Shown: positions 1 through 7,671 of the stretch, piece after piece
Layout of the letters: each line of letters opens with the position of its first letter
How positions within the stretch are numbered: the stretch's first letter is position 1
IMG/VR virus record: IMGVR_UViG_3300049825_000330
Location: 1 to 27,238 of that record
From: a virus
DNA: 27,238 bases
Direction: 5' to 3' (one strand)
Program-made: the position numbers and the translations under genes
Notes under the pieces: model-generated
Databases searched by the model: none
What the model was told of the DNA's origin: nothing
What the model saw: the letters and a program-made list of their open reading frames with translations, nothing else

Positions 1-120
1 AGTGAAGCCGCCGCTTGGTGGATCGCGCTGGGGTTCCCGGATCAAAGCGAAATTGAGGCGAAGAAAGCTGCGGGCTTCCGGATGTGGCCCGCCGAGCTTT
101 CGTGGAAGGAAAAGCCATGA
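1..120 (+). CDS. 3' end of an unrecognised gene (truncated by window edge)
   Basis: An open frame enters the window at base 1 and ends at the TGA at 118-120, giving the last 39 residues of a protein whose start lies outside. The visible part is rich in Trp, Ala, Glu and Lys and ends in SWKEKP. I do not recognise a family. Its stop overlaps the ATG of the NusG-like gene as ATGA at 117-120, and the SD of that gene lies inside this frame, so the two are almost certainly co-transcribed and translationally coupled. The overlap style matches that used throughout the window, which is the main reason for accepting so short a fragment. Confidence 0.6.
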   Translation, partial: SEAAAWWIALGFPDQSEIEAKKAAGFRMWPAELSWKEKP

Positions 121-713
121 AGCGCCTCCCCGTCCACCCGCTTGACCCTAGCCGCCCATGGCCGCCCCACCTTCAATGGTATGCGATTGTCACTGAACCT
201 CGGGCAGAGTTCACTGTAGCGCGCCGGTTTGAGCATGAGGGCATTTTCACCTGGACGCCTACGCGCGAGAAGGCGGCACCACTCAGCTCCCGCAACCATA
301 GGCGCAGTTGGGCGAAGTTGACGAGCAAGCCAGTGCCGCCGCGAACACAGCCGCCCGTCCCGATCTTGTCCGGTTTCGTGTTCGCCGGTTTCACGGCCCC
401 GCCGCGTTGGTTGAATGTGCGGGCCATGCAGAACGTAATTGACGTCGTGTCAAACAACCACGATCCGCTCCGCATCAAGGCTACCGAGCTAGCCAGGTTT
501 CGGGACAGTCTCCAGAAGGCCACAGGGAAGGCGCTAGAGGGCCTTGAATTGAAACTAGGCACCAAGTACCGGCTTGTACTCGGCGGCCTCCTAGAGGCCC
601 CTGAGGTCTTTCTAGATCACATTCCGCCCAAGGGGCCGGGTGTGTTCATCAAAGGCTTGTTTGACGTTCCGACGAAAGTTAACCGTGACCAACTGGAGGA
701 AATTCCCCAATGA
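117..713 (+). CDS. NusG/RfaH-type transcription elongation factor paralog
   Basis: The 198-residue protein resembles bacterial NusG, which is about 180 residues. Residues 21-110 look like the NGN domain: WYAIVTEPRAE near the start, a predicted basic loop, then GFVFAGF before a helix, as in NGN domains that bind the clamp helices of RNA polymerase. Residues 150-198 look like a KOW domain, with GTKYRL, then a VFIKGLFDVPTKV strand pair and QLEEI at the end. I start at ATG 117, not at the GTG at 84, because of the SD GGAAGGA at 104-110 and the ATGA overlap with the previous gene. Phage NusG paralogs can act as operon-specific antiterminators. Such a role here is inference, supported by the internal terminator at 12916-12949 in the long late operon. 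Confidence 0.75.
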   Translation: MKRLPVHPLDPSRPWPPHLQWYAIVTEPRAEFTVARRFEHEGIFTWTPTREKAAPLSSRNHRRSWAKLTSKPVPPRTQPPVPILSGFVFAGFTAPPRWLNVRAMQNVIDVVSNNHDPLRIKATELARFRDSLQKATGKALEGLELKLGTKYRLVLGGLLEAPEVFLDHIPPKGPGVFIKGLFDVPTKVNRDQLEEIPQ

Positions 714-795: not shown

Positions 796-802
796 CGCAT
801 GA
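710..802 (+). CDS. small hypothetical protein (30 aa)
   Basis: ATG 710 overlaps the stop of the NusG-like gene as ATGA. The SD GGAGGA at 695-700 stands 9 bases upstream. The 30-residue product begins MTDFSLPVEL, is mostly helical and basic in the middle, and ends in RQLEEIA. Its stop overlaps the ATG of the next gene, again as ATGA. I recognise no family. The evidence is the two stop-start overlaps plus the SD, so this may be a real peptide or simply a coupling frame that carries ribosomes from the NusG-like gene to the next gene. Confidence 0.5.
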   Translation: MTDFSLPVELVAERLAKSRQKNRRQLEEIA

Positions 803-978
803 GCGAAGAGATTGAGGTTACAGAGGGTATGGTGGGCGCAGGATCGGCTGCGTTTTGGGAGGTTTTGACTGTTGATCTCGATGGAGACATTGGGAATGTC
901 CATGCCACTGTTGCTGCCATCTTCCGCGCCATGACGGAAGCCCAGCGGGCCGAAAGCGCCAAGACGGGGAAGCCCTAA
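799..978 (+). CDS. small acidic hypothetical protein (59 aa)
   Basis: ATG 799 lies 6 bases after the SD GGAGGA (787-792) and overlaps the previous stop as ATGA. A longer in-frame start at 640 is rejected because it lies inside the NusG-like gene and has no comparable SD. The protein starts MSEEIEVTEGM, has a glycine-containing middle with FWEVLTVDLDGDIG, and ends in an amphipathic helix rich in Ala, Arg and Glu. No signal or membrane segment is seen. I do not recognise the family. It is the third gene of the tightly coupled chain that begins before the window. Confidence 0.6.
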   Translation: MSEEIEVTEGMVGAGSAAFWEVLTVDLDGDIGNVHATVAAIFRAMTEAQRAESAKTGKP

Positions 979-980
979 AA

Positions 981-1091
981 ATGCGCTTGAACCCATGGTC
1001 AAAATTCGCTAACCGTATGTTCCATAGTGATTTGCGGGACCTATGGGGCCAGTGCGCTATCGCGCCTCCCAGCCGCACCGGGGCACAGTAG
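981..1091 (+). CDS. possible small basic peptide (36 aa)
   Basis: ATG 981 follows the previous stop by two bases. The frame runs to TAG at 1089-1091 and gives 36 residues beginning MRLNPWSKFA. A weak SD (GGGGA, 966-970) is 10 bases upstream. No family is recognised. The support is position only: it closes the chain of coupled genes and is followed at once by a terminator-like hairpin. It could be a chance frame. Confidence 0.3.
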   Translation: MRLNPWSKFANRMFHSDLRDLWGQCAIAPPSRTGAQ

Positions 1092-1124
1092 CGCCGGAAT
1101 GGGATTGTTTGTCTCAAGTTTTGG

Positions 1125-1158
1125 CCGCACTTGGTTCCGGAGCCTAGTGCGGTGTTTT
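1125..1158 (+). terminator. possible Rho-independent terminator
   Basis: CCGCACT at 1125-1131 pairs perfectly with AGTGCGG at 1146-1152 across a 14-base loop, and TGTTTT follows at 1153-1158. It sits 33 bases after the last small gene. The long loop and short T run make it moderate. It could instead be the 5' hairpin of the structured RNA proposed next. Confidence 0.4.
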
Positions 1159-1159
1159 A

Positions 1160-1690
1160 AGCCTAGACGGATGCATGAGCGGGGGACACCCTGCGGCATT
1201 CGAGACAAGCGGAGGGCGGGGGCTAGGGGTCTCAGGCGCTGCGGCTTTCAAACTTTTCTGCACCGATACTCAGCCGTGGAGAGGATAAATACCACGGGTC
1301 GCTATAGGCGCGGCAGGGTTGCACCCTGCTTAGTCGAGGTAAATTCGGGGTAGCTCGACGAGCGAAACAAAAATCCCCGGCCAATTTCCTAAGTACCCCA
1401 GCCCAGCTCTGCCACAAAGCCTAGGGATGATAATGGCCCCTAGGGGGGTGCGCCAGATTAGCGGAAGCATCGGTTAACGCCTCCCTCTTGAAAGCCCTCG
1501 ACAGGCGTTTTGTGACCGGAGGGGGTGCCCTTATAGTAATTCGGGGCAGCGTGCTTCCGCTAATCCGTTCAGTTGGGCAATGCCCCGGGGTTCGCGTGGC
1601 GAGCCGACTTAGCTGGAACGCTTTTTGAAACATCCTTGGTTCAAACGTTCTGCGTACCAGGGATGGCCCTACCCGGAAGGATGGGCCCGG
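1160..1690 (+). ncRNA. candidate large structured non-coding RNA
   Basis: About 600 bases (1092-1698) hold no frame with an SD or protein-like composition, yet carry a series of perfect hairpins. By position they are 1179-1184/1189-1194, 1274-1279/1292-1297, 1313-1319/1323-1329, 1333-1338/1354-1359, 1420-1426/1438-1444, 1456-1469/1552-1565 with two inner hairpins, 1589-1595/1599-1605, 1616-1620/1646-1650 with 1624-1629/1640-1645 nested inside, and 1665-1669/1683-1687. Where helices contain or extend by wobble pairs, nearly all are G-U in the + sense (for example 1181/1192, 1470/1519, 1591/1603, 1615/1651); only 1427/1437 favours the other strand. This suggests a + strand RNA. Large ornate phage RNAs such as GOLLD and ROOL are known, but I cannot match this to either. 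Ends, promoter and function are unknown. Confidence 0.5.
1456..1565 (+). other. three-way-junction RNA element closed by a 14-bp helix
   Basis: The arm at 1456-1469 pairs without mismatch with 1552-1565. Inside it, 1471-1474 pairs with 1515-1518 (with 1470/1519 as a G-U extension) and 1476-1482 pairs with 1503-1509, forming one hairpin. Next to it, 1526-1530 pairs with 1544-1548 (plus 1531/1543 G-U), forming a second. A closed outer helix with two inner hairpins is a standard RNA junction and hard to explain as chance or as a protein-binding DNA palindrome. Confidence 0.6.
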
Positions 1691-1698
1691 CGTTCCTG

Positions 1699-1947
1699 CT
1701 AACCTATATCAGGATTGATATGATACATTGGGATCGTCAGAAAATATCCGCAGTCCATTGCCTCCAGGACATCACGGCACAGCTCCGGCACAGGCCTTTC
1801 CCCGGCTTCCCACTGGGCCACATAGCGGCCCGGGTCACGGCCCCCATAGTAGAGGGCGCGGCCTAGTTCGGCTTTTGTGAGCGGCCTCCCTAGGCCGATA
1901 CGGTGGCCTAGGGTTTCGCGAACGGCAGTGATTTCAGATGGTTTCAC
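1699..1947 (-). CDS. Xre/Cro-like helix-turn-helix regulator (82 aa)
   Basis: The small protein has the pattern of phage and plasmid HTH regulators: LTKAELGRAL as the first HTH helix, a turn, then YVAQWEAGERPVP, matching the usual tail of the recognition helix and the W/R-E-x-G-x-R-x-P motif. It has no ligand or multimerisation domain of note. I choose GTG 1947, because CGGAG lies 7 bases upstream and the codon overlaps the stop of the 26-residue upstream frame as GTGA; a TTG at 1950 is the alternative. It is transcribed leftward, divergently from the late genes, so it is likely the DNA-binding part of a switch acting on the inverted repeats at 2073-2150. Whether it represses or activates is not visible. 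Confidence 0.75.
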   Translation of the reverse strand: MKPSEITAVRETLGHRIGLGRPLTKAELGRALYYGGRDPGRYVAQWEAGERPVPELCRDVLEAMDCGYFLTIPMYHINPDIG

Positions 1948-2024
1948 CAAGCGGCTCCGTATGTGGTGTCAGCTACCGCCTCGAACCTGTCATATTCGTC
2001 TTTTGCTAATGCGAAGTTAGTCAT
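1944..2024 (-). CDS. 26-residue leader peptide of the HTH operon
   Basis: On the minus strand, ATG at 2024-2022 is preceded 5 bases upstream by AGGAGG, the best SD in the neighbourhood. The frame encodes 26 residues beginning MTNFALAKDEYDRF and ends at TGA 1946-1944, overlapping the GTG of the HTH gene by four bases. The strong SD and coupled overlap suggest it is translated. It may be a functional peptide or a device that controls translation of the HTH gene. No family is recognised. Confidence 0.6.
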   Translation of the reverse strand: MTNFALAKDEYDRFEAVADTTYGAAW

Positions 2025-2047
2025 GTCGTCCTCCTGTTGATGAGACC

Positions 2048-2076
2048 AAAATACACCTTTTTAGCGTATCGTCCAA
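2048..2076 (-). promoter_or_regulatory. leftward sigma70-type promoter for the HTH operon
   Basis: Read on the minus strand, TTGGAC (2076-2071) and TATTTT (2053-2048) are separated by exactly 17 bases. Transcription would start near 2041, leaving a short leader before the ATG at 2024 with its AGGAGG. Confidence 0.6.
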
Positions 2077-2116
2077 TCACATATTAGGTATTATCTCGGC
2101 CCTGAGTTGTGATCGG
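2073..2116. promoter_or_regulatory. inverted repeat between divergent promoters (operator candidate)
   Basis: CCAATCACA at 2073-2081 and TGTGATCGG at 2108-2116 are inverted copies with one mismatch, 26 bases apart. The left arm overlaps the -35 of the leftward promoter; the right arm lies just upstream of the rightward -35. This is a plausible pair of regulator sites. Confidence 0.4.
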
Positions 2117-2123
2117 CCCCCTG

Positions 2124-2151
2124 TTGACACCTGTTGCCGATGTGGTAACAA
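2124..2151 (+). promoter_or_regulatory. rightward sigma70-type promoter for the late genes
   Basis: TTGACA at 2124-2129 (a perfect -35) and TAACAA at 2146-2151 are 16 bases apart. The expected start is near 2158. No other equally good promoter is seen before the packaging genes, so this is the best candidate for the start of the long late operon. Confidence 0.65.
2132..2150. promoter_or_regulatory. operator candidate over the rightward -10
   Basis: TGTTGCC (2132-2138) and GGTAACA (2144-2150) form a 7-5-7 inverted repeat with one mismatch. It fills the spacer and the -10 box, where a bound dimeric HTH protein would block polymerase. Confidence 0.45.
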
Positions 2152-2185
2152 GAGACCATGACTGACAAGCCAGGGAGGCGGGGAA

Positions 2186-2434
2186 GTGAAAAATCATATT
2201 AACGTTCCTCGATTGCCCCTCTTGGTGAGATACGAACAAGCGTTCGGAGCGAAGGCAGCGTCAAACTTCGACTGGATCGACACCGAAGCGCCCGAGCCCT
2301 ACTGGGCTGCTGATGATGAAATCCAAGCCTCGGCGAACGAGCAAGACATCGGGGCTCAATGCCAAGCAGGACAGTTTCACGCCAGCCCCGAGGGTGGGGT
2401 AATGGCCAGGGCGAGAGATAGGGGGAACGGATGA
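2186..2434 (+). CDS. hypothetical protein (82 aa)
   Basis: GTG 2186 has the SD GGGAGG (2173-2178) 7 bases upstream. It is the first sizeable gene after the rightward promoter. The product begins MKNHINVPRL, has an acidic middle with TEAPEPYWAADDE, and ends in an Arg-Gly-rich tail. No membrane segment or known domain is recognised. Its stop overlaps the next start as ATGA. Overlapping minus-strand frames here have no SD and an unnatural Arg/Ser/Pro-rich composition. Confidence rests on the SD, promoter and overlap, not on homology. Confidence 0.55.
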   Translation: MKNHINVPRLPLLVRYEQAFGAKAASNFDWIDTEAPEPYWAADDEIQASANEQDIGAQCQAGQFHASPEGGVMARARDRGNG

Positions 2435-2484
2435 GTGCTTCGCCGCCAAAGTTAGCCCGGACAATTACTATGTGTGACACATGA
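2431..2484 (+). CDS. 17-residue coupling mini-gene
   Basis: ATG 2431 has a strong SD-like run, GGGGGAA, just upstream and overlaps the previous stop as ATGA. The frame encodes 17 residues (MSASPPKLARTITMCDT) and its TGA overlaps the ATG of the next gene, which has no SD of its own. The probable job is to deliver ribosomes to that gene; a peptide function cannot be excluded. Confidence 0.45.
   Translation: MSASPPKLARTITMCDT
2470..2482. promoter_or_regulatory. perfect palindrome over a start codon
   Basis: ATGTGT-G-ACACAT is a perfect 6-1-6 inverted repeat whose last bases are the AT of the ATG at 2481. It could be a protein-binding site. The 1-base centre rules out an ordinary RNA hairpin at full length. 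Confidence 0.3.
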
Positions 2485-2705
2485 CCTTACAAGAATTCCT
2501 CGAAAGCAAAGGCATCGCGGCCAAGGGGGCCGTGAGCCCCGGCAATTGGACATTTGGCCATGAGATGGCCCCCCCAGATGGGGCATTTCTAGAAATCCAG
2601 GGATATCGCTATTGGATAAGCCCTCAGGTCGAGAGCCAGTTCGAGCCTGCATTCCAGAACATCTTGGATTCGGCAGCCTCCCATGGGCTCAAGGTGAAGG
2701 TATGA
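2481..2705 (+). CDS. small hypothetical protein, MTLQEFLE family copy 1 (74 aa)
   Basis: The product begins MTLQEFLESKG and contains a later W-x-FG-x-x-M pattern. The gene at 4987-5259 starts almost identically (MTLQEFLEAKG) and has the same W-x-FG pattern, so the two are paralogs. This copy is shorter and has a YRYWISP segment. No enzyme motif, signal or membrane segment is seen. It is coupled to the mini-gene before it and to the gene after it (ATGA at 2702-2705). The two copies flank the terminase genes, which may mean a packaging or head role, but that is inference. Confidence 0.65.
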   Translation: MTLQEFLESKGIAAKGAVSPGNWTFGHEMAPPDGAFLEIQGYRYWISPQVESQFEPAFQNILDSAASHGLKVKV

Positions 2706-3262
2706 CCGGCTCCATCTCAAACGAGCGCTTCCGTGCCGCTACGGGCCGGGCCCCCTCGGTAACCGAGACATTGAGGCTTCGTTGCCCTCGCCCAGGTTCG
2801 CCCGGCCATGAGGCCTGCGGTTGGGATTATGTCAAAGAACTCCCCATGTGGGAAACCGCACATCACAACACGGTTCCGGACAATCAAGTGGTTGACCGTC
2901 TCAACGCAATCAGCAACAGCGCGGTCACGTCAGCTTCAATGGAAGACCTACACCACAGCCCGGCACTCGACAGGCTACTGGACGGCCCAGGGCTGTTGTC
3001 TCCTCCGCTCCGCCAAGACATGATGGAATCCAAAGGCCTGTCCTACGGTGACGACATTCTGAGCGACCCGGATACCCTCAAGGCCCTGCGGCAAGCCCAC
3101 AACGCCGCGATGTTGTCCGGAATTGGCTTTATTCAGATTAATTACCTGGACGGCAAGCTCTCGATAGCCCATCTCAAGGGCCCGATGGTCTATATAGGCG
3201 AACCCCTTGCCGCACCGCAGCAATCCAATTCGCAACCGCAACAAGATATTGCACCGCAATAA
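2702..3262 (+). CDS. hypothetical protein (186 aa)
   Basis: ATG 2702 overlaps the previous stop as ATGA and has a weak SD (AAGGTGAAGG). An upstream in-frame start at 2612 would lie inside the previous gene and is not used here. The protein begins MTGSISNERFRAATGR and has Cys/Pro-rich stretches near residues 20-40. It is largely helical after that (SMEDLHHSPALDRLL, then DTLKALRQAHNAAML) and ends in a Gln/Pro-rich tail. No known domain is recognised. It sits immediately before the candidate small terminase, so a packaging-related role is possible but unproven. Confidence 0.6.
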   Translation: MTGSISNERFRAATGRAPSVTETLRLRCPRPGSPGHEACGWDYVKELPMWETAHHNTVPDNQVVDRLNAISNSAVTSASMEDLHHSPALDRLLDGPGLLSPPLRQDMMESKGLSYGDDILSDPDTLKALRQAHNAAMLSGIGFIQINYLDGKLSIAHLKGPMVYIGEPLAAPQQSNSQPQQDIAPQ

Positions 3263-3276
3263 GAAAGCTATTCTGT

Positions 3277-3558
3277 ATGGTAGGCACCCCATCATCTGGC
3301 AGTAGGAAGGACAAAATCTTCCGTGCAGCCATCTTGCGTTGTCTCGATGGGGCCAAGCTGGCGACCGTAGATTCATTAGCCGAGCAGGTCATCGCGACCG
3401 CTATGTCTGACGGCCCGTTGAAGATGCAGGCCCTCAAGGAAATTGCTGACCGGCTTGACGGCAAGCCCGCACAGGCGATTGTCGGGCCCGATGACGACGA
3501 GGGCAACCCAACGGCAATCATGCTTAGAATTGTAGACGGTGCGATCAAGCGAGATTGA
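3277..3558 (+). CDS. candidate terminase small subunit (93 aa)
   Basis: The protein starts with a Ser/Lys-rich segment and continues as helices with LAEQVIATAMSDG followed by ALKEIADRLDGKPAQAI. The ADRLDGKP type of motif is common in small proteins encoded just before phage large terminases in proteobacteria, some annotated as DNA-binding small terminases. The gene overlaps the terminase large subunit by 20 bases, the classic TerS-TerL arrangement. The SD is weak (AAGAAAG, about 11 bases upstream of ATG 3277). In the usual model TerS recognises the packaging site and loads TerL. I see no explicit helix-turn-helix, so the call depends mainly on context and the motif. Confidence 0.55.
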   Translation: MVGTPSSGSRKDKIFRAAILRCLDGAKLATVDSLAEQVIATAMSDGPLKMQALKEIADRLDGKPAQAIVGPDDDEGNPTAIMLRIVDGAIKRD

Positions 3559-4921
3559 GGTCCATGTCCCCCGTGCGTTTGCGCCTTTGTTGCAGCCTAG
3601 CCGCTTCAAGGGTGCCTATGGGGGCCGGGGCGGGGCAAAGTCACATCACTTCGCGGAACTGCTTATCATCCGCATGTACGAGGCCGCCAAAAGGGCGGTG
3701 TGCATTCGCGAGGTCCAAAATACCATCAAGGACAGCGTAAAGCTTCTCCTGGAGGACAAAATCCGCAAGCTTGGGCTTACGGGGGCCTTCGAGATAACGG
3801 AACGCGAGATCAAGTGCCTGACCAACGGATCGCTTTGCATCTTCCGGGGTATGCAGAATTTCAACGCCGACAACATCAAGAGCCTTGAGGGCTTCGATAT
3901 CGCATGGGTAGAGGAGGGCCAGACCCTAAGCCAGCGCAGTCTTGATTTGCTGAGGCCGACAATCCGCAAGCCCGGCTCGGAACTGTGGTTTAGCTGGAAC
4001 CCCCGCTTTGAAAGCGACCCTGTTGACAAGTTCTTCCGTGGCGGAGGCGACCGCCGGGGCATGATATGCGTTGAGGTTGGCTATCAGGATAACCCGTGGT
4101 TCCCCGAAGTGCTCCGGGACGAAATGGAGGACGATTACCGGATCGATCCCGAAAAGGCCGCTCACGTCTGGGGTGGGGGCTATGAGCTTATCACCGAGGC
4201 GAACTACTACGCCAAGCTGATCAGCGCTGCGGAACGCGAGGGCCGAGTGGGGAATTTCCCGCACAACCCAGCCAAACAAGTGGTCACGAGCTGGGATATC
4301 GGGGTGGACGACTACACGGACATATTGTTTTGGCAGGAATACACCGATCACGTCCGGATCGTGGACTTCTATGAAATCGACAACGCAGGGATCGGGGAAA
4401 TCCGTGACCTTGCGTTGCCGGAACTAAACCCCAGGCTGGCGGAAGCGGCCCAACAGATGATCGAGCTAGGCCGCCCTGAGCCGTTCCAGTACCGGCATCA
4501 CAATTTCCCCCACGATATCAAGGTCAGGGAATGGGGAGCCGGCGCGAGACAACGCAGCCTCACGGCCATGGAGCTGGGGATCAAGCCTATCCATCCTGGC
4601 GTCCAAACCGACCCTGCGGACCGGATAAACGCTGCGCGCAAGCTTTTGCCCTTGGTTTATTTCAACGACACCCCTAGGATCAGGATATTGATCAACCACT
4701 TGCGGCGCTTCTCACGTAAGAAGAACGAGCTGCTAGGCGTCTACACGGGGCCGTTACATGATGACCACATTCACGCTGCTGACGCTTTTGGCGAGTATGC
4801 GATCAATTGCCCGCTGGTACGCGATCCAGCCATCGAGACACCTAAGCCCCGTGCGCTGCCGGGCCAGATCTACCTGCCGGGCCCGCCGGAACCTAGGCAG
4901 CCGGGCCGCATAAGGCTATAG
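3539..4921 (+). CDS. terL: terminase large subunit (ATPase and nuclease)
   Basis: This is the motor that cuts concatemeric phage DNA and pumps it into the prohead through the portal. The 460-residue length is normal for the PBSX-like group. Walker A is GGRGGAKS at residues 28-35, a known terminase variant with Ala before the Lys. Walker B is DIAWVEE at residues 120-126, with the catalytic Glu pair following the strand. LWFSWNPR near residues 149-156 fits the coupling motif. The RNase H-like nuclease domain starts around residue 248, with VTSWDIGVDD giving the first acidic residue (Asp253); HDDHIHAADAFGEY near the C-terminus fits the last acidic motif. The start is GTG 3539, inside the end of the previous gene. 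Confidence 0.95.
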   Translation: MRSSEIEVHVPRAFAPLLQPSRFKGAYGGRGGAKSHHFAELLIIRMYEAAKRAVCIREVQNTIKDSVKLLLEDKIRKLGLTGAFEITEREIKCLTNGSLCIFRGMQNFNADNIKSLEGFDIAWVEEGQTLSQRSLDLLRPTIRKPGSELWFSWNPRFESDPVDKFFRGGGDRRGMICVEVGYQDNPWFPEVLRDEMEDDYRIDPEKAAHVWGGGYELITEANYYAKLISAAEREGRVGNFPHNPAKQVVTSWDIGVDDYTDILFWQEYTDHVRIVDFYEIDNAGIGEIRDLALPELNPRLAEAAQQMIELGRPEPFQYRHHNFPHDIKVREWGAGARQRSLTAMELGIKPIHPGVQTDPADRINAARKLLPLVYFNDTPRIRILINHLRRFSRKKNELLGVYTGPLHDDHIHAADAFGEYAINCPLVRDPAIETPKPRALPGQIYLPGPPEPRQPGRIRL

Positions 4922-4986
4922 TCAAGTTTGCATTCATGCCAACCGGTGCCGCCAATCACGGCAAAACACCAACCAGGAGTTGATCT

Positions 4987-5259
4987 ATGACCCTACAGGA
5001 GTTTTTGGAGGCCAAAGGCCTGAGGCCGCATGGCGAGTCCAGCGAGTGGCCATTTGGCTTTGTGATGGTTGATGACACCACGGCGGCATTCCCGGTCGCG
5101 TCTCAGGACGGGGCCTCGACATCAACGCTCATGATGGCGGATCCGGACGGGGCTGAGTGGCCTGCCCGGTGGGCTGACGTGGAAGCGTCGCTTAGGGATA
5201 TGGGCGTCCAGACACCCGGAGACGCCCCTCCGGAGCCCGCTGTGAAGCGAAAGAAATAG
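4987..5259 (+). CDS. small hypothetical protein, MTLQEFLE family copy 2 (90 aa)
   Basis: ATG 4987 has AGGAG 7 bases upstream. The first 11 residues match the product of 2481-2705 at nearly every position and WPFGFVMVDD corresponds to its WTFGHEM. The middle differs and the end is Pro/Lys-rich (PEPAVKRKK), suggesting a flexible basic tail. No known domain is recognised. It lies between terminase and portal with three bases to the portal start, in the place where many phages carry small head-completion or packaging accessory proteins. The function is unknown. Confidence 0.65.
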   Translation: MTLQEFLEAKGLRPHGESSEWPFGFVMVDDTTAAFPVASQDGASTSTLMMADPDGAEWPARWADVEASLRDMGVQTPGDAPPEPAVKRKK

Positions 5260-5262
5260 CCA

Positions 5263-7671
5263 GTGGACGACGCCCCGGCGACAGATAAGCCCAAGATGTC
5301 TGGAGACGCCAAGCCGTGGCTTGACGCCATCCAGGACGCCATGGGGTATTTCGATGCCTATCAGCGCAAGGGCGATTCCATAGATAAGCTGTACGCCAAT
5401 CTGGAGAAGATGGCCGAGGGCAGCGTAGACCGCGAGTTCAAGGCCTTCTGGGCCAACATCGAGGTCATGAAGCCTTCGATCTATGCCCGCCCGCCCGTGC
5501 CGGTTTGTACGCCCAGGCATAAGGACCGGAAGGAACTGCCCCGCGTGGCCGCTGAGTTGTTGGAGCGCGTCATGATGACGAGTTTCGACGTCTCGGGCAT
5601 GAGTGATAGCATGTTGATGCTCCGCGATGACGTGTGTATCTCGGGACGCGGCGCCATGTGGCTACGCCTGGAAGAGGACGAAAAGGGCAAGCGCATCTGT
5701 TATGACCATCTGGACCGTCACGACTTCTTGCACGAACCTGCCCGCAAGTGGCGGGAAGTCGGTTGGGTGGCGCGCCGCGAATGGCTGACAGCCCCACAGG
5801 GCGTAAAGCGGTTTGGCCAAGAGTGGCTGCACGCCGGGTTCATCGAGGGCACGCTCGACAATGACCGGCGAGACGACAAGTCGGCTTACAAAGGCGAGCG
5901 CAAGGCAGAGGTTTGGGAGGTTTGGGATAAGGCCTCGAAGAAAGTCTATTGGGTCAACAAGAGCATTCCGAAGCTGCTCGATGAGCAAGACCCGATCCTG
6001 AATCTTGAGGGCTATTTCCCTTGCCCGCAGCCTGCCTATGCGACAGTCCAGCGCGGCTCGCTCATTCCGGTTCCGGATTTCGTCTACTACAAGGACCAGA
6101 TTGAGGAGATCAACGAACTTACGGCCCGGATCGGAGGCCTCAGCCATGCGCTGCGCATGAAGGGCTTCTACGCAGCAGGGACCGATGGTATCGGGGACGT
6201 GATCGAACGCGCCCTCAAGGATATGGACAACCGGGCGCTCATGATCCCGGTTCCGAACTTCGCCTCTCTGGGGGGCAGCCAGCTCAAGGACGCGATTGTG
6301 TGGATGCCGGTCCGTGAAGTGGCTGAGACGGTCAAGATTCTGATTGAGCTTCGCCGCCAACACATCGACGACATTTATCAGATCACCGGCCTCAGCGATA
6401 TCATGCGGGGCAGCACCGATCCAAACGAAACCCTCGGGGCCCAGGAACTCAAGTCGCAGTACGGCAATATCCGGATTCGCGACAAGCAAGCGGGGTTGAT
6501 CCGGGTTGCTCGCGATGCCGCCCGGCTTGCTGGCGAAATCATCGCGGAGAACTTCGATCAAAAGACCATCACCGATATGGGGCAGATGGACCTGCCCTCC
6601 GATGAAGAGATTCAGGGCCAAATCCAACAGATCACCCAACAGGTCCAACAGGCCTTGAGTGATCCAAACATCTTGGCGCAAGCGCAGGCCAACCCCGAGC
6701 AGGCCCAACAGGCCAAGCAACAGGCGATGGACCAGATCGCCAAGTTGGAACAGACGACCACGATTGAGAAGATCATCGGGCTCTACCAAGAGCAACGGAT
6801 GCGCCCATTCGTGCTTGACATCGAGACCGACAGCACGATTCAACCGGACGAAAATACCCAGAAGAAACTGGCGGGCGAATTCCTAACCAGCATCGGGGGT
6901 TTCATTTCAAGCGCGGGCCCGATTGTGCAGGCCCAACCCCAGATGGGCGGTTTTGTCGCGGAAGCGCTCAAGTTCGCCGCCAGGCCGTTCCGGCCCGGTC
7001 GCGCGATGGACCAAGCAATTGACGACCTAGCGCTACAGCTTCAGCAAATGGCCAAAGCGCCCAAGAGCCCCAGCCCCGAGGAAATCAAGGCCCAGATTGA
7101 CCAAAAGGCCCTAGAGGCCAAGATGCAGGTCGAGCAACAAAAGGGCCAACTGGAACAACAGAAGATGCAGGCCGAAATCGCCATGGCCCGCGAAGAGCAC
7201 TCGATGAAAATGCTTGAGATGCAGGCCAGCGCGGACTTGGGGCAGGCCAAGCTGGCGCAAGAGAAAGAGATGCACGGCCAACAGATGGAACACGGCAAGA
7301 TGCAGATGGACCACGATATGTCCAAGCATCAAGACACCATGGCGCAAAGCATCATGAAACAGGACTACCGCAAGCAAGAGCGCGATGACGCCACCAAGGT
7401 CGCGAGCGCCAAGGCGGGGCTGCCGGTCGGCTACACGGCGGAGCAGGACCGGGCCAAGTTCGACGGCATCTTGAAGGAACTTGAGCAGAATCGGGAAGTC
7501 TTGATGGAAATCCTTGCCAACGTGGTGAAGGAAAACGACACAAGGCACCAGGAAGTCGTGGGAAGGCTCCAGGCCGGAGACCAGACCCGCGAGCACATCA
7601 TGAGCGGTATCGAGAAAGGCCAGAAGCCCCGCGATATCGTGGCACAATTGAGAAAGAGGAAGGCAAGCTAG
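5263..7671 (+). CDS. portal protein (802 aa)
   Basis: The portal is a ring at one capsid vertex through which DNA enters and leaves. The large size, the place after terminase, and the N-terminal region with YRKGD-type and FWANIEVMKPSIYARPP segments fit the P22-like/large podovirus portal group. The central part contains PDFVYYKDQIEEIN and GLSDIMRGSTDPNETLGAQ, typical of portal wing and stem regions. From about residue 445 on, the protein is very rich in Gln, Glu, Lys and Met. Residues 610-715 form a long predicted helical, coiled-coil-like section comparable to the barrel that extends into the capsid in large portals. The start is GTG 5263, three bases after the previous stop and with a poor SD, so translation is likely coupled. 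The assignment does not depend on the exact start. Confidence 0.85.
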   Translation: MDDAPATDKPKMSGDAKPWLDAIQDAMGYFDAYQRKGDSIDKLYANLEKMAEGSVDREFKAFWANIEVMKPSIYARPPVPVCTPRHKDRKELPRVAAELLERVMMTSFDVSGMSDSMLMLRDDVCISGRGAMWLRLEEDEKGKRICYDHLDRHDFLHEPARKWREVGWVARREWLTAPQGVKRFGQEWLHAGFIEGTLDNDRRDDKSAYKGERKAEVWEVWDKASKKVYWVNKSIPKLLDEQDPILNLEGYFPCPQPAYATVQRGSLIPVPDFVYYKDQIEEINELTARIGGLSHALRMKGFYAAGTDGIGDVIERALKDMDNRALMIPVPNFASLGGSQLKDAIVWMPVREVAETVKILIELRRQHIDDIYQITGLSDIMRGSTDPNETLGAQELKSQYGNIRIRDKQAGLIRVARDAARLAGEIIAENFDQKTITDMGQMDLPSDEEIQGQIQQITQQVQQALSDPNILAQAQANPEQAQQAKQQAMDQIAKLEQTTTIEKIIGLYQEQRMRPFVLDIETDSTIQPDENTQKKLAGEFLTSIGGFISSAGPIVQAQPQMGGFVAEALKFAARPFRPGRAMDQAIDDLALQLQQMAKAPKSPSPEEIKAQIDQKALEAKMQVEQQKGQLEQQKMQAEIAMAREEHSMKMLEMQASADLGQAKLAQEKEMHGQQMEHGKMQMDHDMSKHQDTMAQSIMKQDYRKQERDDATKVASAKAGLPVGYTAEQDRAKFDGILKELEQNREVLMEILANVVKENDTRHQEVVGRLQAGDQTREHIMSGIEKGQKPRDIVAQLRKRKAS

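Follow-up and report, generated by a model that had tools for sequence, protein, structure and literature searches.

What fills the gene-free stretch ahead of the packaging genes of this phage, and what might it do there? An earlier note on the same DNA had taken positions 1160-1690 to be one large, ornate RNA read from the + strand. The window analyzed here is the whole viral record IMGVR_UViG_3300049825_000330 (27,238 bases). It carries terminase and portal genes, and the portal is closest to those of phages of Rhizobium and other alphaproteobacteria; the packaging genes start with the terminase pair (3277..4921, + strand) (Table 1). We use the term slot for the interval between the leader described below and the terminase genes or, where a locus is short, for whatever follows the leader. 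Hexamer-based coding scores, with this phage group as the training set, bore out the absence of a credible frame in the block. Frames within 979-1698 scored negative or near zero except for two weak ones, a minus-strand frame of 46 codons (1330-1470) and another at 1573-1866, of which only the start falls in the block. Family-model searches found no family for the product of the small gene at 799..978. The gene at 1699-1950 had previously been called an HTH gene, a label that gained no family match in Pfam, PHROGs, or NCBIfam.

Table 1. Features of the window from the regulatory gene to the portal gene
Feature	Coordinates	Strand	Details
Specialized NusG paralogue gene, likely trans-acting antitermination factor	117..713	+	
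Small gene, 59 codons	799..978	+	Hexamer score 25; last gene ahead of the leader
Putative leader promoter	987..1021	+	TTGAAC (987-992), 17 nt, TAACCG (1010-1015)
Conserved 5' leader	1026..1120	+	AGTGATTTGCGGG at 1026, two hairpins, TTGTCTCAA at 1109-1117
5' part of the noncoding slot	1121..1450	+	Hairpin 1125-1152, then TGTTTTAA
110-nt domain	1456..1565	+	Perfect 14-bp closing helix, GATTAGCGGAAGCA/TGCTTCCGCTAATC
3' domain	1566..1702	+	Includes TTAGCTGGAACGC (1609-1621) with GCGTTCCTGCTAA (1690-1702)
Small gene, second slot occupant	1699..1950	-	Hexamer score 25
Presumed small terminase subunit	3277-3558	+	Inferred from position
Large terminase subunit	3539-4921	+	PF04466, 3e-35; phrog_3717, 9e-51
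Portal gene	5263..7671	+	phrog_12082, 3e-181

The first gene in Table 1, for which 84 and 102 are also possible starts, encodes a protein with a NusG-family N-terminal domain (PF02357, 3.4e-9, above the cut-off) that also matches phrog_6386, a transcription antiterminator family (4.6e-11). Its match to the UpxY model (9.1e-8) lies far below the cut-off of that model. The LoaP model did not match the window protein and gave 17.3 bits, against a cut-off of 125, for the corresponding protein of L043 (labels of this kind denote loci of related phages and prophages). The NusG paralogues are related to the RfaH, LoaP, UpxY, and NusG families but score far below the first three cut-offs and below the NusG cut-off too, so we filed the protein under none of these families. 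It shares 48% identity with its L030 counterpart, which was the only match among viral contigs; none was found in 385 genomes of the class.

Behind this region lies a conserved element at 1026-1120, which means that a block starting at 1160 had been begun too far 3'. L030 is the sole relative that matches here (window 1027-1120 versus L030 2717-2809; 75.8% identity over 95 nt, with the arms of hairpin 2 unchanged), and both leaders stand downstream of a NusG-paralogue gene. Hairpin 1 has the apex GCGC-TATC-GCGC (1054-1065) and an outer helix of TGCGG (1033-1037) with CCGCA (1073-1077), and hairpin 2 reads CCGG.GC..GC.CCGG (1078-1097). The window leader combines GTGATTTGCGG with two hairpins and is without the UCAC loop found in many related leaders. 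Among viral contigs, the core motif of the window and L030 leaders occurred only in the L030 contig; a looser motif search returned 12 other stretches, which are apparently unrelated. The putative promoter, for which TATGTT (1016-1021) is an alternative -10 element, is weaker than those of the relatives, and a consensus scan of 900-2200 gave it no score.

This arrangement of a NusG paralogue, a promoter, a GTGATTTG leader, and a variable insert recurs in related phages and among prophages of one bacterial family. The upstream gene is a NusG paralogue in L043, L046, L133, L032, L042, and L122. Promoters of the form TTGACA/G, 17 nt, and TAGGAA or TAATGG precede GTGATTTG at a similar distance in L030, L043, L046, and L133. 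The last three were the further true cases in a pattern search that combined the promoter with GTGATTTGCGRG; each has TTGACG, 17 nt, and TAATGG, followed by GTGATTTGCGAGAC, and their leaders fold as an outer helix with two hairpins. Leaders with GTGATTTGCG are found in these three loci and behind NusG-paralogue genes in prophages. When 397 genomes of the order were searched with a strict leader pattern, the L133 prophage was the single true case. Within one bacterial family, phrog_25909 was present in 19 of 298 genomes (controls, 0 of 14). Opposite-strand occurrences of ACTGATTTGCG (L036, L052, and L122) were discarded as chance.

Between -80 and +420 of the NusG stop, TGATTTG was present at 16 of 27 loci, compared with 8% of random stretches from the same loci; the exact motif is absent from the other 11, several of which have one-base variants. 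A hairpin with UCAC in or beside its loop was seen in 15 of 26 leaders, some of which had their starts and limits set by eye (shuffles: mean, 5.6; maximum, 12 of 26). The stems of these hairpins differ (for example, GCGGAG/CTCCGC, GATTGG/CCAATC, and GCTGGT/ACCAGC). Clear UNCG loops are limited to L032, L185, L190, and L195 (the window has GCGC-UAUC-GCGC), and a loose UNCG test over all leaders did no better than shuffles. Of 26 leaders, 4 have an intrinsic terminator in the next 420 nt (shuffles: mean, 0.9; maximum, 3), the clearest of them directly behind the L183 leader, and most leaders are without a recognizable terminator nearby. In L114, L037, and L052, phrog_15385 takes the upstream position in place of the NusG paralogue, and such a leader was not seen there. 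This family is possibly an alternative late regulator.

What follows the leader varies from locus to locus. A tRNA-Asn occupies the slot in L043 and, without the leader, in L114; L192 has a tRNA plus tRNA-like pieces, and L046 has tRNA-like pieces. ORFs follow the leader in L030, L181, and L193, and genes on the opposite strand sit in the slot at about 10 of 26 loci. The gene-free slots of L046, L052, and L012 are folded (z of -4.5, -3.6, and -6.2, respectively), and the slots of L114 and L133 fold no better than shuffles. A pseudoknot-like module with a covarying hairpin stem is common to L037 (2451-2560) and L042 (5765-5860). Its two-sided stem changes (CATCACCC/GGGTGATG and CAAGAACC/GGTTCTTG) surround a conserved loop for which an upstream pairing is possible (CCCACG with CGTGGG, CCACG with CGTGG); this covariation was read from the sequences, as the MAFFT alignment was partly out of register. 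Another hairpin, common to L046 and L037, has one two-sided change (CCAACG/CGTTGG versus CCAAGG/CCTTGG). Since the slots of relatives hold tRNAs, a covarying module, and folded stretches, this position does harbor structured RNA, but no part of that RNA can be aligned with the window block.

A published isolate, Rhizobium phage RHph_I3_18 (MN988542), is the source of L173 4328-5070 and has about 940 unannotated bases before its terminase genes (4328-5070 and the first bases of the circular record), with folded pieces in the stretch. It has a 93-nt piece in common with the L114 prophage (93.5%); this module was absent from viral contigs and from the other genomes among 298, and a 38-nt match to it in G189 was taken as chance.

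In L192, the approximately 940 nt after the NusG-paralogue gene (2110-3053) contain modules closed by TTTGGAATGG/CCATTCCAAA, one of which has a tRNA-like TTCGAAT arm and is followed by a real tRNA. The tRNA-like module of L046 resembles that of L192 and was called by neither ARAGORN nor Rfam. A 760-nt gene-free stretch upstream of the L012 terminase (441-1201) is strongly folded on the + strand (z of -6.2 and -4.8), ends in a terminator-like hairpin and a T run, and has no Rfam match; 68 nt of it are present in L013 at 93%. The related phage L034 has a match to the Rfam abiF RNA at 1287-1322 (41.4 bits).

Within the window block, the earlier count of at least nine perfect hairpins was right for arms of 5 bp, but the number is at the level of chance in dinucleotide shuffles. 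Positions 1160-1690 contain 14 hairpins with arms of at least 5 bp (13.9 in shuffles), 6 with arms of at least 6 bp (3.8 in shuffles; reached by 53 of 300), and 3 with arms of at least 7 bp (1.0 in shuffles; reached by 21 of 300). The reported eight-to-one asymmetry in favor of G-U wobbles was not reproduced. In a symmetric test, with G-U and A-C equally allowed in helices, the block had one of each; the counts were 22 versus 15 when the block was pooled with the slots of relatives and 77 versus 88 in coding windows. The claim is not strictly refuted, however, because our set of helices differs from the one used before.

A perfect 14-bp inverted repeat (1456-1469/1552-1565) had no equal in 200 shuffles. 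When the pairing span was limited, 1121-1702 gave a z of -2.6 on the + strand (5 of 1,000 shuffles as stable) and -2.0 on the - strand (26 of 1,000). The 3' domain alone (1566-1702) gave a z of -3.0 (4 of 1,000), and 1121-1450 alone folded like shuffles (321 of 1,000 as stable). Under unrestricted folding, z ranged from -1.6 to -3.5 with the ends chosen for the block, and values of -3 to -4 also occurred in some of the coding windows of this phage. By these hairpin and folding tests, the evidence of structure sits in the 3' half of the block, and shuffle tests on a single sequence are no substitute for covariation. An eye-spotted motif at several module starts (CAGATC with GGAAG/CTTCC), possibly also present at window 1453-1469, is post hoc, and we make no claim for it.

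Searches for known RNAs were negative, and no Rfam family of any kind matched the block. GOLLD and ROOL, which the earlier note had mentioned for their similar size, gave no gathering-level match in the whole window, none up to an E value of 10 in 900-2200, and no covariance-model match in the scanned relatives. No Rfam group I or II intron model matched up to an E value of 10, and neither ARAGORN nor the Rfam tRNA model found a tRNA or tmRNA in the window. With blastn, 1121-1698 had no relative in phages or plasmids and only six short matches in 385 alphaproteobacterial genomes (E values of 0.001 to 0.006 per genome), which is about what chance would produce over that many genomes.

Because relatives fill this place with tRNAs, structured RNAs, and small genes, the block appears to be a variable slot for cargo. 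The explanation that we consider probable is that 1026-1120 is the promoter-proximal cis-acting signal of antitermination by the NusG paralogue, in the manner of LoaP or RfaH, and that a noncoding, partly structured cargo slot follows it. Transcription would start near 1026, with GTGATTTGCGG as the first bases of the transcript. These bases, together with the two hairpins that come after them, would then load the NusG paralogue (117-713) onto RNA polymerase, much as LoaP is loaded at its leader hairpin and RfaH at ops, and the modified polymerase would read through the slot into the terminase, portal, and other structural genes. Promoter activity, binding of the paralogue, and antitermination are predicted here by analogy. 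Positions 1121-1698 would be the current slot filling of this phage, noncoding and transcribed within the late leader, and its 3' domains may fold as RNA and have a function of their own. An RNA of the + strand is the better reading of the block, since the leader at 1026 points into it and the slots of relatives hold tRNAs and structured RNAs; that it forms one ornate RNA of 600 bases is unproven.

The leader looks like a new kind of antitermination signal, and no description of this type was found in the literature searched. Antitermination by LoaP depends on a leader hairpin of the UNCG type and targets an intrinsic terminator that lies downstream (PMC12691694). As at the dfn and mln leaders of Bacillus velezensis, a specialized NusG paralogue and a hairpin-bearing leader are found here at the start of a long operon. 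Unlike LoaP, the present system is phage borne, in alphaproteobacterial phages and prophages, and has a conserved GTGATTTG at the presumed transcript start, often with a UCAC loop in the second hairpin; the protein falls far below the LoaP cut-off, and the UNCG loop is confined to a subset. In the proposed mechanism, a short conserved sequence recruits a NusG paralogue where the target operon begins, as ops does for RfaH. Here, however, the element lies at the presumed transcript start, reads GTGATTTG rather than ops, and is followed by two hairpins, and the protein is below the RfaH cut-off. At the put sites of phage HK022, two hairpins at the 5' end of the transcript modify the polymerase without a phage protein. 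The presumed transcript here likewise begins with two hairpins, whereas a NusG-paralogue gene adjoins the leader in the loci studied.

Could the slot instead be a discrete, large structured RNA of the GOLLD or ROOL kind, expressed late, often together with tRNAs, and with 1456-1565 and 1566-1702 among its domains? Both of these RNAs are found in the neighborhood of tRNA islands, and the level of GOLLD increases during lysis (PMC12286853); the likeness is one of large folded phage RNAs, several hundred bases long, close to tRNAs. The + strand folding and the 14-bp helix of the window fit this idea, as do the folded slots of L046, L052, and L012, the two-sided changes in the L037/L042 and L046/L037 stems, and the tRNAs in the same slot. 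We nevertheless regard it as possible but doubtful. The window block has neither a covariance-model match nor a tRNA, and it is without a relative and therefore without a covariation test; 1121-1450, the hairpin counts, and the G-U bias are at chance, and the L114 and L133 slots do not stand out from shuffles. It is rather unlikely, in our estimate, that the slot following the NusG-paralogue leader serves as a diversity hot spot for large, modular, tRNA-linked RNAs of a new class in alphaproteobacterial phages, made late from an antiterminated promoter, with window 1121-1702 as a rapidly diverged member composed of domains of about 100 nt.

A decayed protein gene, possibly the ruin of a moron gene, is conceivable because TTGTCTCAA (1109-1117) is kept but a stop follows after 12 codons. 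The L030 leader runs into an ORF that possibly starts with TTGTCTCAA, and the leader and first codons (TTG TCT CAA) are the same in L030 and the window. We consider this origin unlikely, given that nucleotide searches found no similarity of 1121-1698 to the L030 ORFs, that nothing scores as coding, and that the 14-bp helix and the folded 3' part would be left unexplained. The block might also be an attenuator zone, in which pause or termination hairpins prevent expression of the packaging genes before loading of the NusG paralogue. LoaP leaders consist of a hairpin and then an intrinsic terminator (PMC12691694), the terminators behind L183 and a few other leaders recall this arrangement, and the window hairpin at 1125-1152 with the TGTTTTAA behind it is imperfect but terminator-like. 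Such a zone seems improbable to us, as a terminator scan of window 900-2200 found no intrinsic terminator and 580 bases far exceed what this function needs.

If antitermination at the leader is the right explanation, widespread phages and prophages would switch on their packaging genes through a NusG-type factor of their own and a short leader, a compact system in which to study how NusG paralogues choose their targets. The interval between leader and terminase would likewise be a place to seek unknown phage RNAs, and RHph_I3_18 offers an isolate that is open to testing, with a long stretch free of annotation in the corresponding position. Farther downstream in the window, two small genes flank the terminase genes (2481-2705 and 4987-5259); both products start with MTLQEFLE.KG, and the first gene is 76% identical to a gene of L030.
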